Both the position numbers and the translations under genes were made by a program. A model generated the notes under the pieces. The model was not told the DNA's origin and did no database searches. It saw only the letters and a list, made by a program, of their open reading frames with translations. This document shows positions 1,223 through 20,097 of a stretch of 40,412 nucleotides of DNA, in pieces (within the stretch, counting starts at the first letter, position 1; each line of letters starts with the position of its first letter). The DNA comes from a virus: positions 1-40,412 of IMG/VR virus record IMGVR_UViG_3300046536_000163. One strand, given 5' to 3'.

Positions 1223-1232
1223 CGCGTTTGTG

Positions 1233-1276
1233 GCACCTACTCACGGTGAGTAGGTGCTACGGTTCTCCCGTACAGT
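1233..1276 (+). promoter_or_regulatory. 25-bp palindrome S1 fused to a promoter
   Basis: The perfect palindrome GCACCTACTCA-CGG-TGAGTAGGTGC occupies 1233-1257. TGAGTA (1247-1252) is followed 18 bases later by TACAGT (1271-1276), a plausible -35/-10 pair with the -35 inside the right arm. A start point near 1283 gives a short leader with GAGGGAG before the ATG at 1303. The same TGAGTA-N16-19-TACRGT arrangement recurs at S5, S6, S7 and S10. Binding here would block RNA polymerase. Confidence 0.6.
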
Positions 1277-1302
1277 CCAAACAGCGAACGAGGGAGCACC
1301 AA

Positions 1303-2475
1303 ATGGCCACCGCCCGGAAGACCACGACAGCCGCTAAGAAGACCGCCACCCCTGACGAGGTCGAGGCGAAGAACGTTGCCCTCCGTGAGGAGATCGCCGC
1401 CAACACCGAGCGAGTGCAGTCCCTCGCCGAGGCCGACAATGCCGAGGGAGTCGCCGAGCTGAAGGCCGAGACCGACGGTCTGATTGTCCAGCTTCCGACG
1501 CGTGAGCGGAACGCGCTTCGCAAGGCGCTGACTGCCGCTTCGCAGGCCGAGAAGGCCGCTGCCCCGTCGACGGAGGTCGCCCCGATCGAGACGCCCGCCG
1601 CTCCGGTCGTCGTCGGTGCCGAGGTTGACGCGCTGGTGCAGGAAGGCGCTCAGCTCGTCCGGGACTCCGCCGTTCAGAAGTTCAAGAGTGGCCACGCCAT
1701 CGCGAACGTGCTCCTGAAGATCCGCACCTCGATCATCCTGCCGGACGGCACCCCGGACATCCTTGCTACCTCACAGGAAGCTAAGGACAAGTCCGCCGAG
1801 GTCTACACGTTGGTTACCGCTGGACTCCCGGAGGAAGGCGACGAGAACGACACCGACGCGACCGCCGCCGTTCGCAACGAGATCAACTCGATCAAGCGTG
1901 GCGCGCAGAACGCCATGACCGACGCCCGTACCCTGTACTTCCGTGAGCTGGACACCGCCCCGGAGGAAGCCGCACGGTTCGCGAAGGTCACCGAGGGTGC
2001 ATCGGCCGACCAGAAGATTTCTGACCTGGTCGCCGCTCACTACGGCGTCGAGCTTGCCACCCGCTCCGAGCTTGCGAAGGTCAAGCGCGAGAACGTGAAG
2101 GCGCTTGAGGCCGCGAAGGAGACGCTCACCACCGCCACGGGCGCACTCGCCGAGGCCGAGGAGAAGGCCGCTGAGAAGGTCGCAGCGGGCGAGATGACCG
2201 AGGACGAGAAGGCCGAGGCGCTGAAGGCCGCTGAGGACGCCGTCGCGGCTGCTAAGGCTGCTGCTGACGCTGCCGCAGAGAAGGCGGGCGTGAAGGTCGA
2301 GGAAGACCCGGCCGAGGCGCTCGCGGACGCCATTGCGAAGATTGCCCGGCTCGCCGAGGCGCTGAACGCGAAGGGGATCGCCGGGCTTGACGCAAAGAAG
2401 GCACCCGGGCTCCGTAAGAAGGCTCTTGTGTCTCGGGATGCCCTGGTGGCGCTCCTCGGCAACTGGGACGCGTAG
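1303..2475 (+). CDS. Large Ala/Glu/Lys-rich protein with coiled coil, function unknown
   Basis: A 390-residue protein. The ATG at 1303 is chosen because GAGGGAG lies 7 bases upstream and because the longer frame would start inside the operator. The N-terminus is basic (MATARKTTTAAKK). Residues 1-75 look helical, and 90-215 form a more globular part with ALVQEGAQLVRDSAVQKF and the KIRTSIILPDG stretch. Residues 220-330 are Ala/Glu/Lys heptad-like coiled coil, and the C-terminus is again basic and Leu/Ala-rich. I recognise no enzyme motif. It is the only large early gene controlled by the palindrome-promoter type S1 and is closed by its own terminator, so it is a separately regulated monocistron. 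A DNA-binding or repressor role is possible but unsupported by a visible HTH. Confidence 0.8.
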   Translation: MATARKTTTAAKKTATPDEVEAKNVALREEIAANTERVQSLAEADNAEGVAELKAETDGLIVQLPTRERNALRKALTAASQAEKAAAPSTEVAPIETPAAPVVVGAEVDALVQEGAQLVRDSAVQKFKSGHAIANVLLKIRTSIILPDGTPDILATSQEAKDKSAEVYTLVTAGLPEEGDENDTDATAAVRNEINSIKRGAQNAMTDARTLYFRELDTAPEEAARFAKVTEGASADQKISDLVAAHYGVELATRSELAKVKRENVKALEAAKETLTTATGALAEAEEKAAEKVAAGEMTEDEKAEALKAAEDAVAAAKAAADAAAEKAGVKVEEDPAEALADAIAKIARLAEALNAKGIAGLDAKKAPGLRKKALVSRDALVALLGNWDA

Positions 2476-5238: not shown

Positions 5239-5952
5239 ATGGCACTTCGCATCTTCGAGACCGACCCCGACGCCGCGCCGAAGGAGCGCACCAGCTACAC
5301 GGACGACACAGTCGGCCGGTTCCACTCGGGCACGACGGAGGTCGACGCCCGGGGGCAGACAATCCCCGTGTCCCTCGCCGAGTGGCGCGTCACGACCGGC
5401 AGTCAGGCCGTTGCTGACGCTGTCGCTCAGCTTCTCGGCGGAACTCCGGTCGAGACCGACAGCACGTCGGAGAACTTCATTGAGGTTCTCACCACCGCTG
5501 ACGGAGTTCAGGTGATCCTCGACGGCCCCGACGCGATCAAGTCGGACATGAAGTTGTGGAACCGCTCCAAGCTGGTCCACCACTGCGACGGTGTCGAGTT
5601 CCTCTCCCCGGACGACAAGGCCGGACGCCCGTGCGGCTGCCCGGAGTTGTTCGCCGAGCGGAAGGCCGCAGCGAAGGACTTCATCGGCCCGTCGCCCTCG
5701 ATCAGCATCACGTTTCGGCTCGCCGATGACCCGGAACTCGGCACCTTCCGGTTCCAGTCCGGTAGCTGGACCCTCGCCGAGGTGCTGCACCAGTACGACA
5801 ACGCGCTGACGAAGGTTGGCGGCGAATCGGTCGCGACCCTCGCACTCGAACTGGTCGAGTACACCACGAAGAAGGGCCGGAACGTGTCCTACCGGAAGCC
5901 CGTGCTGAACGGCATCCGGTCGTACAACTCGGCCATCACCGAGGGGCGTTAG
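5239..5952 (+). CDS. phiC31 gp3-like recombination directionality factor (putative)
   Basis: A 237-residue protein with GGGAGAGAGA just upstream of its ATG. The N-terminus RIFETDPDAAPKERTSYTDDTVGRFHSG and the following EWRVTTG match my memory of the phiC31/phiBT1 gp3 family, of similar length (phiC31 gp3 is about 244 residues). gp3 binds the serine integrase and switches it from attP x attB integration to attL x attR excision. A CxC-x-C-like patch (PCGCPELF) near residues 132-139 and two histidines (VHHC near 115) may bind metal. It is placed in the early lytic region, about 12 kb from the integrase, as expected for a factor made only on induction. Family assignment is by recalled pattern, not a search. 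Confidence 0.7.
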   Translation: MALRIFETDPDAAPKERTSYTDDTVGRFHSGTTEVDARGQTIPVSLAEWRVTTGSQAVADAVAQLLGGTPVETDSTSENFIEVLTTADGVQVILDGPDAIKSDMKLWNRSKLVHHCDGVEFLSPDDKAGRPCGCPELFAERKAAAKDFIGPSPSISITFRLADDPELGTFRFQSGSWTLAEVLHQYDNALTKVGGESVATLALELVEYTTKKGRNVSYRKPVLNGIRSYNSAITEGR

Positions 5953-12298: not shown

Positions 12299-12323
12299 TC
12301 ACCTACTCAACGTGAGTAGGTGC
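12299..12323 (+). promoter_or_regulatory. 25-bp palindrome S4
   Basis: TCACCTACTCA-ACG-TGAGTAGGTGC (first base differs) starts 12 bases after the polymerase stop and opens the non-coding region 12288-12635. That region holds, in order, S4, a GTCTA operator (12404), a terminator (12475), a Crp-type box (12532) and early motif P6 (12581), all before the sigma-factor gene. Confidence 0.7.
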
Positions 12324-12403: not shown

Positions 12404-12419
12404 GTCTATAGCTGTAGAC
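12404..12419 (+). promoter_or_regulatory. Isolated GTCTA-N6-TAGAC operator upstream of the sigma-factor gene
   Basis: GTCTATAGCTGTAGAC matches the six operators at 19192-19345, which lie 6.8 kb away in front of the HTH gene. It is the only other copy I found in the window. TTTCAAAAG just upstream makes the place AT-richer than its surroundings, as expected for a promoter region. Confidence 0.65.
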
Positions 12420-12474
12420 AACCACTGACGTGCGGGTTTACGTTTCCTTCACGAAGCACGAACGGCCCGCGCAA

Positions 12475-12505
12475 GCCCCCGTCTTCGAAACCCGGAGACG
12501 GGGGC
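12475..12505 (+). terminator. Intrinsic terminator
   Basis: GCCCCCGTCT (12475-12484) pairs with AGACGGGGGC (12496-12505) around an 11-nt loop. It separates the polymerase transcript, and anything started near the operator at 12404, from the sigma-factor gene; a small product upstream of it is not visible. Confidence 0.75.
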
Positions 12506-12531
12506 CGTGTGGTTCCGCGCTGCCTTTTTCA

Positions 12532-12580: not shown

Positions 12581-12596
12581 CGAAACCTTGCCGTTC
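12581..12596 (+). promoter_or_regulatory. Early motif copy P6, ahead of the sigma-factor gene
   Basis: CGAAACCTTGCCGTTC, 40 bases before the ATG at 12636. GTTCC (12593-12597) can pair with GGAAC (12600-12604) or with GGAAC in CAAGGAACTC (12610-12614), a leader hairpin as at other copies. If the encoded sigma factor reads this motif, the gene is autoactivated. Confidence 0.6.
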
Positions 12597-12635: not shown

Positions 12636-13439
12636 ATGATCAAGCTGTCCATGGAGCAGATCGCCGACGCCAAGGCGAACGACCTCTCCGCCGTTACGGC
12701 CGTGATCGAGGCAACCGAGGAGCGCGTTCAGCAACTCGCCTACCGGCACGCCAGCATCGGCGGGCGCATCGACCAGGACCTTCGGGAAGACCTCGCTCAG
12801 ATCGGCCGCATGAACGTGTGGGAGGCCATCAAGCGGTTCGAGGGAACGACGGTCGCCGAGTTCTTCGTGTTCATCGACAGCACGGTAGACGGGCAGATGA
12901 GCAACGAGCGCAAGCGCGACACCCGGCAGGGAGTGTCTCGCGACACGGCAGCCCGTTTCGAGATAGCGCTGAGCGCCGCCGAGGGTGACGCGTACAAGGC
13001 TGAGAAGCTCGCTCAGACCACGGAGGTCATGGGCCGACGCCCGATGAGCGCTGACCGGGCGTACGCCGCTCGCTTGGCGTACCAGGGGGTGCAGTACCTC
13101 GACGCACCCGCCACGGGTGACAGCGGGGAGGGCTTCTCGACCTTCGGAGAGATGCTCGCTGACGTGGTCGGGGTGCCCGTCGACCTGTTGGAGCCGAGCG
13201 ACTTCGAGAAGGCCCGTCGGCGCGAGACGCGAGACAAGGTGCACGCCACCCTCGACCGCATGGGTTTCCAGGCCCGGACCGTGCTGAAGGGCATGACGGG
13301 CATCGACCCCGTCGGCTTCTACGGCACCGAGCATGACGAAGAACTCGCGGCCGACTTCGGCATTCCGCGCGACCGCATCCGGACCATACGGAGCCTGGGC
13401 CGTAAGCGTTTCGCCGAGCTGTACACCTTCGCCAACTAG
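12636..13439 (+). CDS. Phage-encoded sigma-70-family factor
   Basis: A 267-residue protein; ATG 12636 with CAGGAGC 10 bases upstream. Residues 19-90 match region 2: VQQLAYRHAS, then DLREDLAQIGRMNVWEAIKRFE (compare DLxQxGxxGLxxAxxRFD of sigma-70) and FFVFIDSTVDGQMSNERKR. Residues 150-180 (YLDAPATGDSGEGFSTFGEMLAD) match the region 3-4 linker, typically SLDxPxGxExxxxLGDxLxD. Residues 197-262 are region 4, with ARTVLKGMTGID and the HTH ELAADFGIPRDRIRTIRSLGRKRF. It likely redirects host RNA polymerase to phage promoters. It could instead act as an anti-host or repressor-like variant, since region 2.4/-10 contacts cannot be judged by eye. Confidence 0.75.
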   Translation: MIKLSMEQIADAKANDLSAVTAVIEATEERVQQLAYRHASIGGRIDQDLREDLAQIGRMNVWEAIKRFEGTTVAEFFVFIDSTVDGQMSNERKRDTRQGVSRDTAARFEIALSAAEGDAYKAEKLAQTTEVMGRRPMSADRAYAARLAYQGVQYLDAPATGDSGEGFSTFGEMLADVVGVPVDLLEPSDFEKARRRETRDKVHATLDRMGFQARTVLKGMTGIDPVGFYGTEHDEELAADFGIPRDRIRTIRSLGRKRFAELYTFAN

Positions 13440-17325: not shown

Positions 17326-19116
17326 ATGACGATTCAGAACGCGCTAGAAGCCGCTGAGGCGGCCGAACTACTCACCGTGAAGACCCCGGTGAGGTACGTC
17401 TACCCTGACGCGCTGGTACAGGCCGACCGGCCCCGCGCGGTGGTCTACTGCCGACAGAGTCGAGCCAGTGCCGACGACTCGCAGGCGTCCCCGGAGATGC
17501 AGCGTACGTCAGCCGAAGCGCACTGTGTGGCGCAGGGGTATTCGCCGGTCGCGTGCTTTACCGACGTCGGCAAGTCCGGATGGAATCCGAAGGTCACCCG
17601 CCCCGCATTCGAGGAAATGATGCAGTGGGTCCGGGACGGGAAATGCGACGTCGTTGTGATCTACGAACTCCGCCGTCTCACTCGGCAAGGTGCCCATGAG
17701 GCGCTGAAGATCGAATCTGAGATGCGGGATAACGGCGTTGCCCTGGTCTCCGTCCGCGAGCCGTACCTAGACACGGGCTCCCCGGTCGGTGTCGGCATCT
17801 TCGCCATTCTCGCCGGGCTCGCCAAGCAGGAATCCGACCTGAAGTCGGAATACATCACCGATACGCGCGACCTCGCCCGCAAGGTTGGCGGGCACGTGTC
17901 CGGCCCCGCACCGTACGGAACCCGCGCCGAGAAGCTGAAGACGGAAACCGGCGTTGCGTACCAACGTCTCGTTCCCGTTGAGGACGAAGCCCGGGTAATC
18001 CGCCGCATGGTCGACATGGTCATGGACGGAAAGTCGGTCGGGAAGGTCGCCGTCGCCCTGAACGACGACGGAATCAAAACGCCCGCGCAGCGCGAAATCC
18101 ACGCCGGACGCAAGGGATTCGCCTTCTCGAAGCCGACCCCGCTCCGCCCCGCTGGTGCCCCGCCCGTGTGGAGCGCGACTCAGGTCTTCCGCACGCTCCG
18201 GGACCCGCGCATTGCGGGCATGGCCGCTGACAAGGTGCACGGCGGGTCAACCAATTTCGAGATACGGCGCGACGACGCAGGCGTGCCCCTCGCTCCGCAT
18301 GAGCCGATCATCACGCCCGCCGAGTGGTTCACCCTTCAGTCGCGCCTGTCGTCCGAGGGCTCACGGCACCGCACGACCAGGGGTGAGGCGACGCACCTAC
18401 TGTCCGGATGGGACTTCCTGCACTGCCCGTGTGGCGCTGGTGCCACGTGCTCCGGGGCGACACGGCCCGGAGGGCGTACCTACCGGTGCAGCCGCAACAG
18501 CGAGTACCGGAAGGCGTACAACCACACGGGGCTGTCCGTCATGGCCGACGCTGCCGAGGACCACATTGCCGGGGCCGTCTTCGCACGGATGCTGGCGCTC
18601 GACGTCGAGGACGAGAACGACGCCGAGTTGCTCGGCGAGGTCACCCGCCGGTTCGCCATGACGGGTGACTCCGTCGGGCTCGCCAGAGAGCTGACTGCCG
18701 TCCGCGCGCAGCTCGACCACACGACGCGCAGCATCGAAGCCCTGTACGAAGACAAGGACGTCCACAAGCTCTACGAAGGCAAGATCGGCCGGGCATCGTT
18801 CGCCCGTGCCCTGTCCGCGCTGAACACCGTCGAGGCCGAGTGCAGGAACCTCGCCGCCGACCTCGAATCAGCGATGACCGGTGCGGCTGTCCTGCCGATC
18901 GAGCAATGGTGCGGCGGGTTCGACATGGAGCACGGCGACTACACCGGACCCGGCTCGCCCTGGTCGACGTGGACGGTCGCGTTCAGGCGCGAGTTCCTCT
19001 CCCTGTGGCTCGACGGCGTGACCATGCTGCCCGCCGAGGCGTGGCGTCCGCCGATCGCGCACCGTCTCGAACTCCACTGGGCGAAGCCCGCCGAGGACGA
19101 CCAGGACGACGACTAG
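17326..19116 (+). CDS. int: Large serine integrase (phiC31 type)
   Basis: A 596-residue site-specific recombinase. The N-terminal resolvase domain has AVVYCRQSRASADDSQ with nucleophile S45, then DVVVIYELRRLTRQG and GIFAILAGLAKQESDLKSEYI leading into the long E helix. The recombinase domain includes PAPYGTRAEKL and VWSATQVFRTLRDPRIAGMA. The zinc-ribbon domain has LHCPCGAGATC near 365-375 and YRCSRNSEYR. A coiled-coil segment follows (SVGLARELTAVRAQLDHTTRSIEALYED), and the C-terminus ends HWAKPAEDDQDDD like the acidic tail of phiC31 Int (ITWAKPPTDDDEDDA). Length is typical (phiC31 Int about 605). It integrates attP into a host attB; excision would need the gp3-like protein at 5239. Confidence 0.95.
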   Translation: MTIQNALEAAEAAELLTVKTPVRYVYPDALVQADRPRAVVYCRQSRASADDSQASPEMQRTSAEAHCVAQGYSPVACFTDVGKSGWNPKVTRPAFEEMMQWVRDGKCDVVVIYELRRLTRQGAHEALKIESEMRDNGVALVSVREPYLDTGSPVGVGIFAILAGLAKQESDLKSEYITDTRDLARKVGGHVSGPAPYGTRAEKLKTETGVAYQRLVPVEDEARVIRRMVDMVMDGKSVGKVAVALNDDGIKTPAQREIHAGRKGFAFSKPTPLRPAGAPPVWSATQVFRTLRDPRIAGMAADKVHGGSTNFEIRRDDAGVPLAPHEPIITPAEWFTLQSRLSSEGSRHRTTRGEATHLLSGWDFLHCPCGAGATCSGATRPGGRTYRCSRNSEYRKAYNHTGLSVMADAAEDHIAGAVFARMLALDVEDENDAELLGEVTRRFAMTGDSVGLARELTAVRAQLDHTTRSIEALYEDKDVHKLYEGKIGRASFARALSALNTVEAECRNLAADLESAMTGAAVLPIEQWCGGFDMEHGDYTGPGSPWSTWTVAFRREFLSLWLDGVTMLPAEAWRPPIAHRLELHWAKPAEDDQDDD

Positions 19117-19191: not shown

Positions 19192-19345
19192 GTCTAGCGG
19201 TGTAGACGGGGCCGAGGTCTACCGGTGTGGACTCACCCGTCTATCGCTGTAGACCCAAGTGTCTACCGCTGTAGACAATCCGGCGTCGGGGCTGGTACAA
19301 CCCCTGTCTACACCTATAGACCGAAGCGCTTCTACAGCGCTAGAC
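19192..19345 (+). promoter_or_regulatory. Array of six GTCTA-N6-TAGAC operators
   Basis: 16-bp palindromes lie at 19192-19207, 19217-19232 (TGGAC in the right arm), 19239-19254, 19261-19276, 19306-19321 and 19330-19345 (TTCTA in the left arm). Centre-to-centre distances are 25, 22, 22, 45 and 24 bp, so sites lie about two helical turns apart with one position skipped. The last ends 13 bases before the ATG of the HTH gene. A seventh copy is at 12404-12419. This is the expected form of cooperative autoregulation. Confidence 0.85.
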
Positions 19346-19358
19346 CGAAGGGGCTCAC

Positions 19359-19829
19359 ATGCTCGCGACCATAGACGCCGTCCGTAGCGGGGACGTCTTC
19401 GCCGACGTGTACGGCGGGATCTTCGCCGCCCTGTCCGACGCCACCCCGGACGACACCGAGACGTGGTCTGTACTGGCCGTTCAGTTCGCCGCAGGCGTCG
19501 ACTACGACGAGTCCACAGACACGCTCCATCTCGGTAATCTCCCTGTCATGACGATGCAGCAGCCGACCGGCGAACCGGTCGAGATCCACCAGCGCGACCT
19601 ACCCATGACGCACGACGACGCCGTGTCCGCGCTGCGCGACCGGAAGGCAGCGAAGGTCGAGGCCGACGTGGCGGCCGAGGAAGCCACAGAGGCGTTCTAC
19701 GCCTCGATCAGAGACGCCTTCGCGGCGAAGGTCGACCTGGACGAACTGATTGCCGAGACGGGCCTTAAAAAGGCCATGCTGTACCGCATCCGGCAGGGCG
19801 GGGCCGGTCGGCTGAAGCGGGGAGAGTGA
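19359..19829 (+). CDS. HTH DNA-binding protein, candidate repressor of the GTCTA operators
   Basis: A 156-residue protein; ATG 19359 with AAGGGG 7 bases upstream. Residues 1-80 form a domain without recognised motif (FADVYGGIFAALSDATPDD, WSVLAVQFAAGVDYDEST). Residues 85-122 are a helical, charged segment (THDDAVSALRDRKAAKVEADVAAEEATEAFYASI). Residues 125-148 read as a helix-turn-helix: LDELIAETGLKKAMLYRIRQG, with a basic tail GRLKRGE. The six-operator array directly in front makes autoregulation very likely, and the copy at 12404 links it to the sigma-factor gene. It is a monocistron closed by the terminator at 19861. Repressor, Cro-like protein or antirepressor cannot be told apart. Confidence 0.7.
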   Translation: MLATIDAVRSGDVFADVYGGIFAALSDATPDDTETWSVLAVQFAAGVDYDESTDTLHLGNLPVMTMQQPTGEPVEIHQRDLPMTHDDAVSALRDRKAAKVEADVAAEEATEAFYASIRDAFAAKVDLDELIAETGLKKAMLYRIRQGGAGRLKRGE

Positions 19830-19941: not shown

Positions 19942-20035
19942 GTGTGACGAGTGACGGTTCTTAGGTATTTTCCGTATTCACATATACATCTCTAAGGGAT
20001 ACCGGAAAAAGCGTGCGTTCCGTCATCCGTCACAC
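19942..20035 (-). repeat. Long inverted repeat, copy B (partner at 2733-2824)
   Basis: The reverse complement of this 94-nt block aligns along its whole length with 2733-2824, sharing TGACGGATGACGGAACG, CGGTATCCCTTAGAGATGTA and CGTCACTCGTCACAC. Differences are concentrated in the AT-rich right centre. The pair brackets the early and lysogeny regions. Confidence 0.85.
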
Positions 20036-20060: not shown

Positions 20061-20097
20061 TGACACCCTGCCGTTCCGGCATGAAACCCTGCCGTTC
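20061..20097 (+). promoter_or_regulatory. Tandem early motifs P7 and P8 ahead of the tRNA array
   Basis: TGACACCCTGCCGTTC (20061-20076) and TGAAACCCTGCCGTTC (20082-20097) are 21 bases apart, start to start, on the plus strand. Nothing coding follows until the tRNA-like genes at 20214, so they likely drive that array. The doubled motif, two helical turns apart, is unique in the genome. Confidence 0.6.

Follow-up and report, generated by a model that had tools for sequence, protein, structure and literature searches.

A second, putative operator family at an HTH gene and at the sigma-factor gene of a φC31-like actinophage

Which protein reads a cluster of near-identical palindromes in front of a small helix-turn-helix (HTH) gene of a phage, and why does a further copy of the same palindrome lie ahead of the gene for a phage sigma factor? 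The window analysed here, meaning the whole stretch of DNA, comprises the 40,412 bp of an IMG/VR record, and its genes are arranged as in φC31: a homologue of the repressor gene c, a Gp3-like recombination directionality factor, primase, DNA polymerase, a sigma-like gp12, serine integrase, tRNAs, an HNH endonuclease region and structural genes. It is a temperate, φC31-like actinophage, and putatively a virus of Streptomyces-type bacteria. The HTH gene and the array of palindromes occupy a variable slot flanked by the integrase gene and the tRNA cluster (Table 1). The sigma-like gene has matches in 27 phage records, and its match to the Sigma70_r2 profile (E=9e-5) is under the Pfam cut-off. Further 3' of the integrase gene, at about 19945-20035, the window holds a short stretch between inverted repeats of the GTGACGAGTGACGG / CCGTCATCCGTCAC type, and diverged counterparts of it follow the integrase in most of the relatives read.

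Table 1. Coordinates of genes, predicted operators and candidate promoter elements in the window
Feature	Position	Strand	Details
φC31-type repressor c homologue	1228..2475	+	PF25746, E=5.6e-43
c-type operators (11)	1234, 6868, 10385, ~12300, 14142, 14789, 21006, 22549, 27014, 35943, 38851		
c-repressor operator (CIR) in the polymerase-sigma gap	12301..12322	+	just 3' of the DNA polymerase gene; ~80 bp 5' of the lone site
Lone seventh operator (predicted)	12404..12419	+	GTCTATAGCTGTAGAC; exact; 27.5 bits
-10-like TACGTT	12439..12444	+	18 nt after TAGACA; read from sequence
gp12-type RNA polymerase sigma-factor-like gene	12636..13439	+	267 aa; phrog_15865, E=7e-48
Serine integrase gene	17326..19116	+	immediately 5' of the array
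Operator site 1 (predicted)	19192..19207	+	GTCTAGCGGTGTAGAC; exact; 26.2 bits (weight matrix, as for all sites)
Operator site 2 (predicted)	19217..19232	+	GTCTACCGGTGTGGAC; one mismatch (TGGAC half); 23.1 bits
Operator site 3 (predicted)	19239..19254	+	GTCTATCGCTGTAGAC; exact; 27.9 bits
Operator site 4 (predicted)	19261..19276	+	GTCTACCGCTGTAGAC; exact; 26.6 bits
-10-like TACAAC (putative promoter)	19296..19301	+	18 nt after TAGACA; within the 45-bp gap separating site 4 from site 5
Operator site 5 (predicted)	19306..19321	-	GTCTATAGGTGTAGAC on the - strand; exact; 27.1 bits; around the putative transcription start
Operator site 6 (predicted)	19330..19345	-	one mismatch (TTCTA half); 25.1 bits; in the putative leader
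Ribosome-binding-like GAAGGGG	19347..19353	+	5 nt before ATG; read from sequence
HTH protein gene	19359..19829	+	156 aa; residues 84-150: long helix, then helix-turn-helix

The initial annotation counted GTCTA-N6-TAGAC six times within 154 bp. Six sites do span the 154 bp from 19192 to 19345, but only four of them are exact, the other two carrying one mismatch each; the centre spacings of 25, 22, 22, 45 and 24 bp, the 13-nt gap between the end of the array and the ATG of the HTH gene and the exact seventh copy were all recovered as described there. That this seventh copy is the only other operator also holds. A weight matrix built from the seven sites gives them 23-28 bits, while the next-best score in the window is 11.3 bits, and the maxima in 30 simulated 40-kb sequences have a mean of 12.3 and a top value of 17.5 bits; as the matrix was trained on the same seven sites that it scores, their own scores are optimistic, and it is the gap to the rest that matters. 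The exact pattern had no match in 100 dinucleotide shuffles and two single matches in total in five whole Streptomyces genomes (~44 Mb), which corresponds to about 0.002 expected per 40 kb. The GTCTA sites of the window are real and specific, and they number seven, no more.

The seven sites define a fuller motif that is longer than the palindrome and has an orientation, GTCTA[CTG][CA]G[CG]TGTAGAC, with sites 1-4 and the lone site reading forward and the last two of the array in reverse. None of the seven departs from G8, T10 or G11, although these positions do not pair, and changes in the arms are uncompensated, which argues for a protein site and rules out the RNA hairpin that a palindrome might otherwise suggest; an Rfam search of the window returned tRNAs only. 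Phages do carry host-regulator sites, and the protein in question could be a host regulator or the repressor of another phage, with the sites serving as decoy or sensor and the HTH gene as a bystander. I regard this as highly improbable, as site pairs within 2-32 bp occur in none of 393 Streptomyces genomes, a sample that may not include the host of this phage, single sites in the five whole genomes are rarer than a reversed control pattern, and the sites track the HTH gene across relatives, as described below.

The gene next to the array probably encodes a small HTH DNA-binding protein. The phrog_686 profile ('HTH DNA binding protein') matches it weakly (E=6.1e-4, positions 8-72 of the 76-aa family), and the AlphaFold2 model shows a confident long helix and two short helices over residues 85-145, with pLDDT of about 70-89 over residues 91-150 and below 50 over residues 1-83, the N-terminal half of the model being unreliable. 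The small phage HTH proteins of phrog_686 have the same long helix with HTH, whereas the window protein has 83 additional N-terminal residues, for which no known relative was found. As a whole, the 156-aa protein has no relative among 50,697 phage records and IMG/VR, and alignment-based searches of IMG/VR returned either nothing or a single contig, L026. The HTH domain was found in none of 296 Streptomyces genomes in a search run without a positive control, a sequence search of solved structures gave no match, and Foldseek returned nothing significant, its best viral matches (E >0.1) including small actinophage HTH proteins. Profile searches gave no match to replication-initiation families; the gene has no Pfam match and is not a c homologue (PF25746).

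A candidate promoter lies within the array itself. The right half of site 4 and the next A together read as a -35-like TAGACA (19272-19277, a putative role), and site 4 ends 19 nt before the -10-like TACAAC, so that the 45-bp gap of the array is where the -10 would lie. The corresponding start would place site 5 at about +5 and site 6 at about +29. The putative -10 is weak, and a consensus promoter scanner called no promoter at the array or at the lone site, both candidate promoters having been read by eye once the sites were known. The cluster of six sites, with its putative promoter, directly precedes the regulator's own gene.

In order to see whether gene and sites go together, a check that the initial annotation had proposed, they were compared in 21 records, namely L026, 17 named Streptomyces phages and the viral contigs L027, L061 and L062. 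L026 is the nearest integrase relative (72%), and directly after its integrase it encodes a 72-aa HTH protein that aligns over 63 aa with the C-terminal part of the window protein (54% identity, E=5e-16) and is itself a weak phrog_686 match (1.2e-4, positions 11-72 of 76). It has one exact site, GTCTAGGGCCGTAGAC, ending 7 bp before the ATG of this homologue, with TAGACT positioned as a leaderless -10; the site would cover the putative -10 and start, which fits autorepression. Exact site and HTH homologue are both present in L026 only and both absent from the other 20 records, with a single one-mismatch match in Vash, elsewhere in the genome. Relatives with the gene but without the operators, which would have spoken against the proposed pairing, were looked for and none was found, with only one relative in the searched data having the gene. 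Including the window, gene and site occur together in 2 of 2 against 0 of 20, a result expected by chance in 1 of 231 cases if the records were independent; independence does not hold, as L026 is nearest to the window by integrase, and the co-inheritance is not independent of kinship. Among the fully covered relatives L027 is the closest (integrase 59%, sigma 67% identical), and it has neither the gene nor the sites; the comparison of the sigma gene leaves out L026, which is a 6-kb fragment.

The phage already has a repressor, c, which acts at multiple sites, and the lone GTCTA site lies near the place of φC31's second c operator in the gap between the polymerase and sigma genes, so the GTCTA sites might be extra operators of c. 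A count of gapped palindromes speaks against this. In φC31 (AJ006589) it gives TACTCAC/GTGAGTA in 15 copies, the established c operators of that phage, and the same count in the window found, independently, 11 copies of CACCTACTCA-N3-TGAGTAGGTG, a 23-bp operator. Since the c homologue has 11 operators of its own with a different sequence, the GTCTA sites, which likewise differ from the CCTACTCAC-GTGAGTAGG type of CIR palindrome, form a second, separate operator family, and c was rejected as their binder. L027 and other c-bearing relatives lack GTCTA sites as well, and the idea of extra c operators is barely credible. The relatives have c-operator variants of their own (GGTCCTCCTCACGTGAGGAGGACC in L027, CAGTACCTCACGTGAGGTACTG in L044 and CACCGACTCACGTGAGTCGGTG in L062). 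No c operator is found in the window between 14.8 and 21.0 kb, and the HTH regulator could therefore be made in the lysogen.

The lone site lies between the polymerase and sigma genes, in the putative promoter region of the latter. This gap is conserved across the phage group. φC31 has a pair of c operators there, and from the centre of the second it is 16 nt to a -10-like TACGTT; a TACGTT similar to that of the window occurs at the same place, downstream of a c operator, in both φC31 and Heather. The first of the two c operators is retained in the window, whose lone GTCTA site is a little upstream of φC31's second c-operator position. No clear remnant of a second c operator was detected at the lone site, where the best match is 11/23, a level reached by 1.4% of positions. 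The right half of the lone site again yields a -35-like TAGACA (12415-12420), and the array and sigma loci have one layout in common, operator-AA-N17-TAC in the same orientation, with 19 nt from the operator end to TAC. In L027, without the HTH gene, the gap has no GTCTA site. A tentative but plausible scenario is that a small HTH gene carried as cargo beside the integrase took over the sigma promoter, its operator replacing a c operator, whereby the late genes would gain a second, c-independent control.

Two other features of the sigma leader were observed. A strong GC hairpin (GCCCCCGTCTTCGAAACCCGGAGACGGGGGC, 12478-12506) lies past the lone operator and before the sigma gene, with counterparts at similar positions in relatives, and is possibly an attenuator or terminator. 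An element just 5' of the sigma gene (12581-12596) repeats after the integrase gene (20082-20097), where the late promoter is presumed to lie (GAAACCTTGCCGTTCC / GAAACCCTGCCGTTCC). In a comparison that took in the window, L005, L027/L032 and L033-L040, the two elements match within each phage (19/19 in L027/L032, 17/17 in Heather and Sebastisaurus, 16/16 in BT1, while control segments share 7-10) and differ in sequence between phages; the sigma factor may itself target this pair and so be autoregulated.

The common geometry of both loci could also be that of an activator. The HTH protein would then activate its own gene and the sigma gene from sites 4 and 7 as class-II positions, and sites 5 and 6 would provide negative feedback at high concentration, as lambda CI does at PRM. 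A centre near -39.5 is the classic activator position, and sites 4 and 7 are both predicted to be centred there, in the same orientation and at the identical 19-nt distance to a -10-like element; moreover, the -10s are weak and have no good -35 of their own, and the two downstream sites have the opposite orientation. However, the start positions used in this calculation are putative, and the sole site of L026, over the predicted -10 and start, is in a repressor position. Activation is therefore unlikely, and I retain repression as the simpler reading.

The same palindrome occurs outside the φC31 group. A two-site scan of IMG/VR found 20 contigs with paired GTCTA-N6-TAGAC, and none of the 16 whose neighbouring genes were examined is a φC31 relative. 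In four unrelated phages (L007, L015, L019, L021) arrays with 21-23 bp spacing lie inside replication-initiation genes. Arrays inside such genes were also seen in L010, L018 and L025 (the last by its resemblance to L018), where, as in the other initiator genes, they are translated into repeated peptides such as KNLDS or DTVSS. The contig L016 (65% GC) has two sites at 5475-5514, before a HicA-like/HicB-like pair, and its HicB has a C-terminal HTH with a weak phrog_686 match (0.0045); it may be an independent case of such sites before a gene with an HTH of this class, judging from that weak match. One of its sites falls inside the 17 nt that separate TTGACT from TATAGT. Taken together, the initiator arrays and the L016 pair imply that the palindrome alone does not identify a protein family. 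They also raise the question whether the array of the window is a replication origin, an iteron cluster for a replication protein, with the lone site as a secondary replication element. The palindrome and the spacing of about 22 bp are indeed shared, but the known arrays are within initiator coding sequence, whereas that of the window is intergenic, in a promoter region before the HTH gene. In addition, the primase/polymerase set of the window is common to phages without the array, relatives with the same replication genes (L027, the φC31 group) have no such sites, and the L026 fragment has a single one. An iteron function is quite improbable.

Since the array travels with the gene and the lone site lies in the sigma promoter region, autoregulation together with control of the sigma gene is the best reading. 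I consider it fairly probable, from sequence comparison, that an autoregulated HTH regulator independent of c was acquired in the slot between the integrase gene and the tRNAs and also controls the promoter of the sigma-factor gene, repression being the simplest mode. A dimer of the 156-aa protein would bind the oriented 16-bp motif at six sites around its own promoter, four of them upstream, with the fourth over the -35, and two past the start in opposite orientation, and would thereby limit its own synthesis. Binding to the one operator at the gp12-type sigma gene would place this gene under control independent of c, in the simplest case repression. If made in the lysogen, the regulator would put a second lock on the sigma factor, and via sigma on the late genes, the last step being suggested by the gp12-type gene and by analogy with Xpf of PBSX. 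The autoregulated switch over a sigma factor proposed in the initial annotation is thus supported as far as the co-occurrence of array and gene and the position of the lone site at a conserved sigma gene are concerned. It is not the main switch of the phage, as a c repressor with 11 operators exists, and the GTCTA/HTH module is probably a second, accessory regulatory circuit.

Xre of the Bacillus subtilis element PBSX has an operator cluster and controls xpf. Xre is a small HTH repressor, and the late cassette is driven by Xpf, a phage sigma-like factor (PMC8347963). A repressor-type gene over a phage sigma gene is therefore already known, and the wiring, which the initial annotation did not recognise as described, is not of an undescribed type. 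The window shares with this system an operator cluster at the regulator's own putative promoter and the same operator at that of the sigma gene, whereas Xre is the main repressor of its element and the HTH gene of the window has been added in another slot, beside an existing c; no sequence relation of the window protein to Xre was found. Within its own phage group, the c/CIR system of φC31 also has palindromic operators at early promoters, the polymerase-sigma gap among them, but the GTCTA sites have another sequence, occur at two loci only and accompany a small protein other than c. Repeated phage-repressor sites, oriented in L5, are known as stoperators in mycobacteriophage L5 and Streptomyces phage R4 (PMC6550527, PMC10276819). 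Stoperators are scattered genome-wide and mostly outside promoters, whereas the window has six sites at one putative promoter and one at a second. What would be new here is an accessory regulator with its own operators beside c.

φC31-type phages underlie much of Streptomyces genetics and are usually described as having one repressor. If the proposed circuit is true, it shows how an accessory gene can rewire the late switch of a phage, and it would account for the differing operators at sigma-gene promoters in the φC31 group. GC-rich actinobacteria would also gain a compact new pair of repressor and operator.
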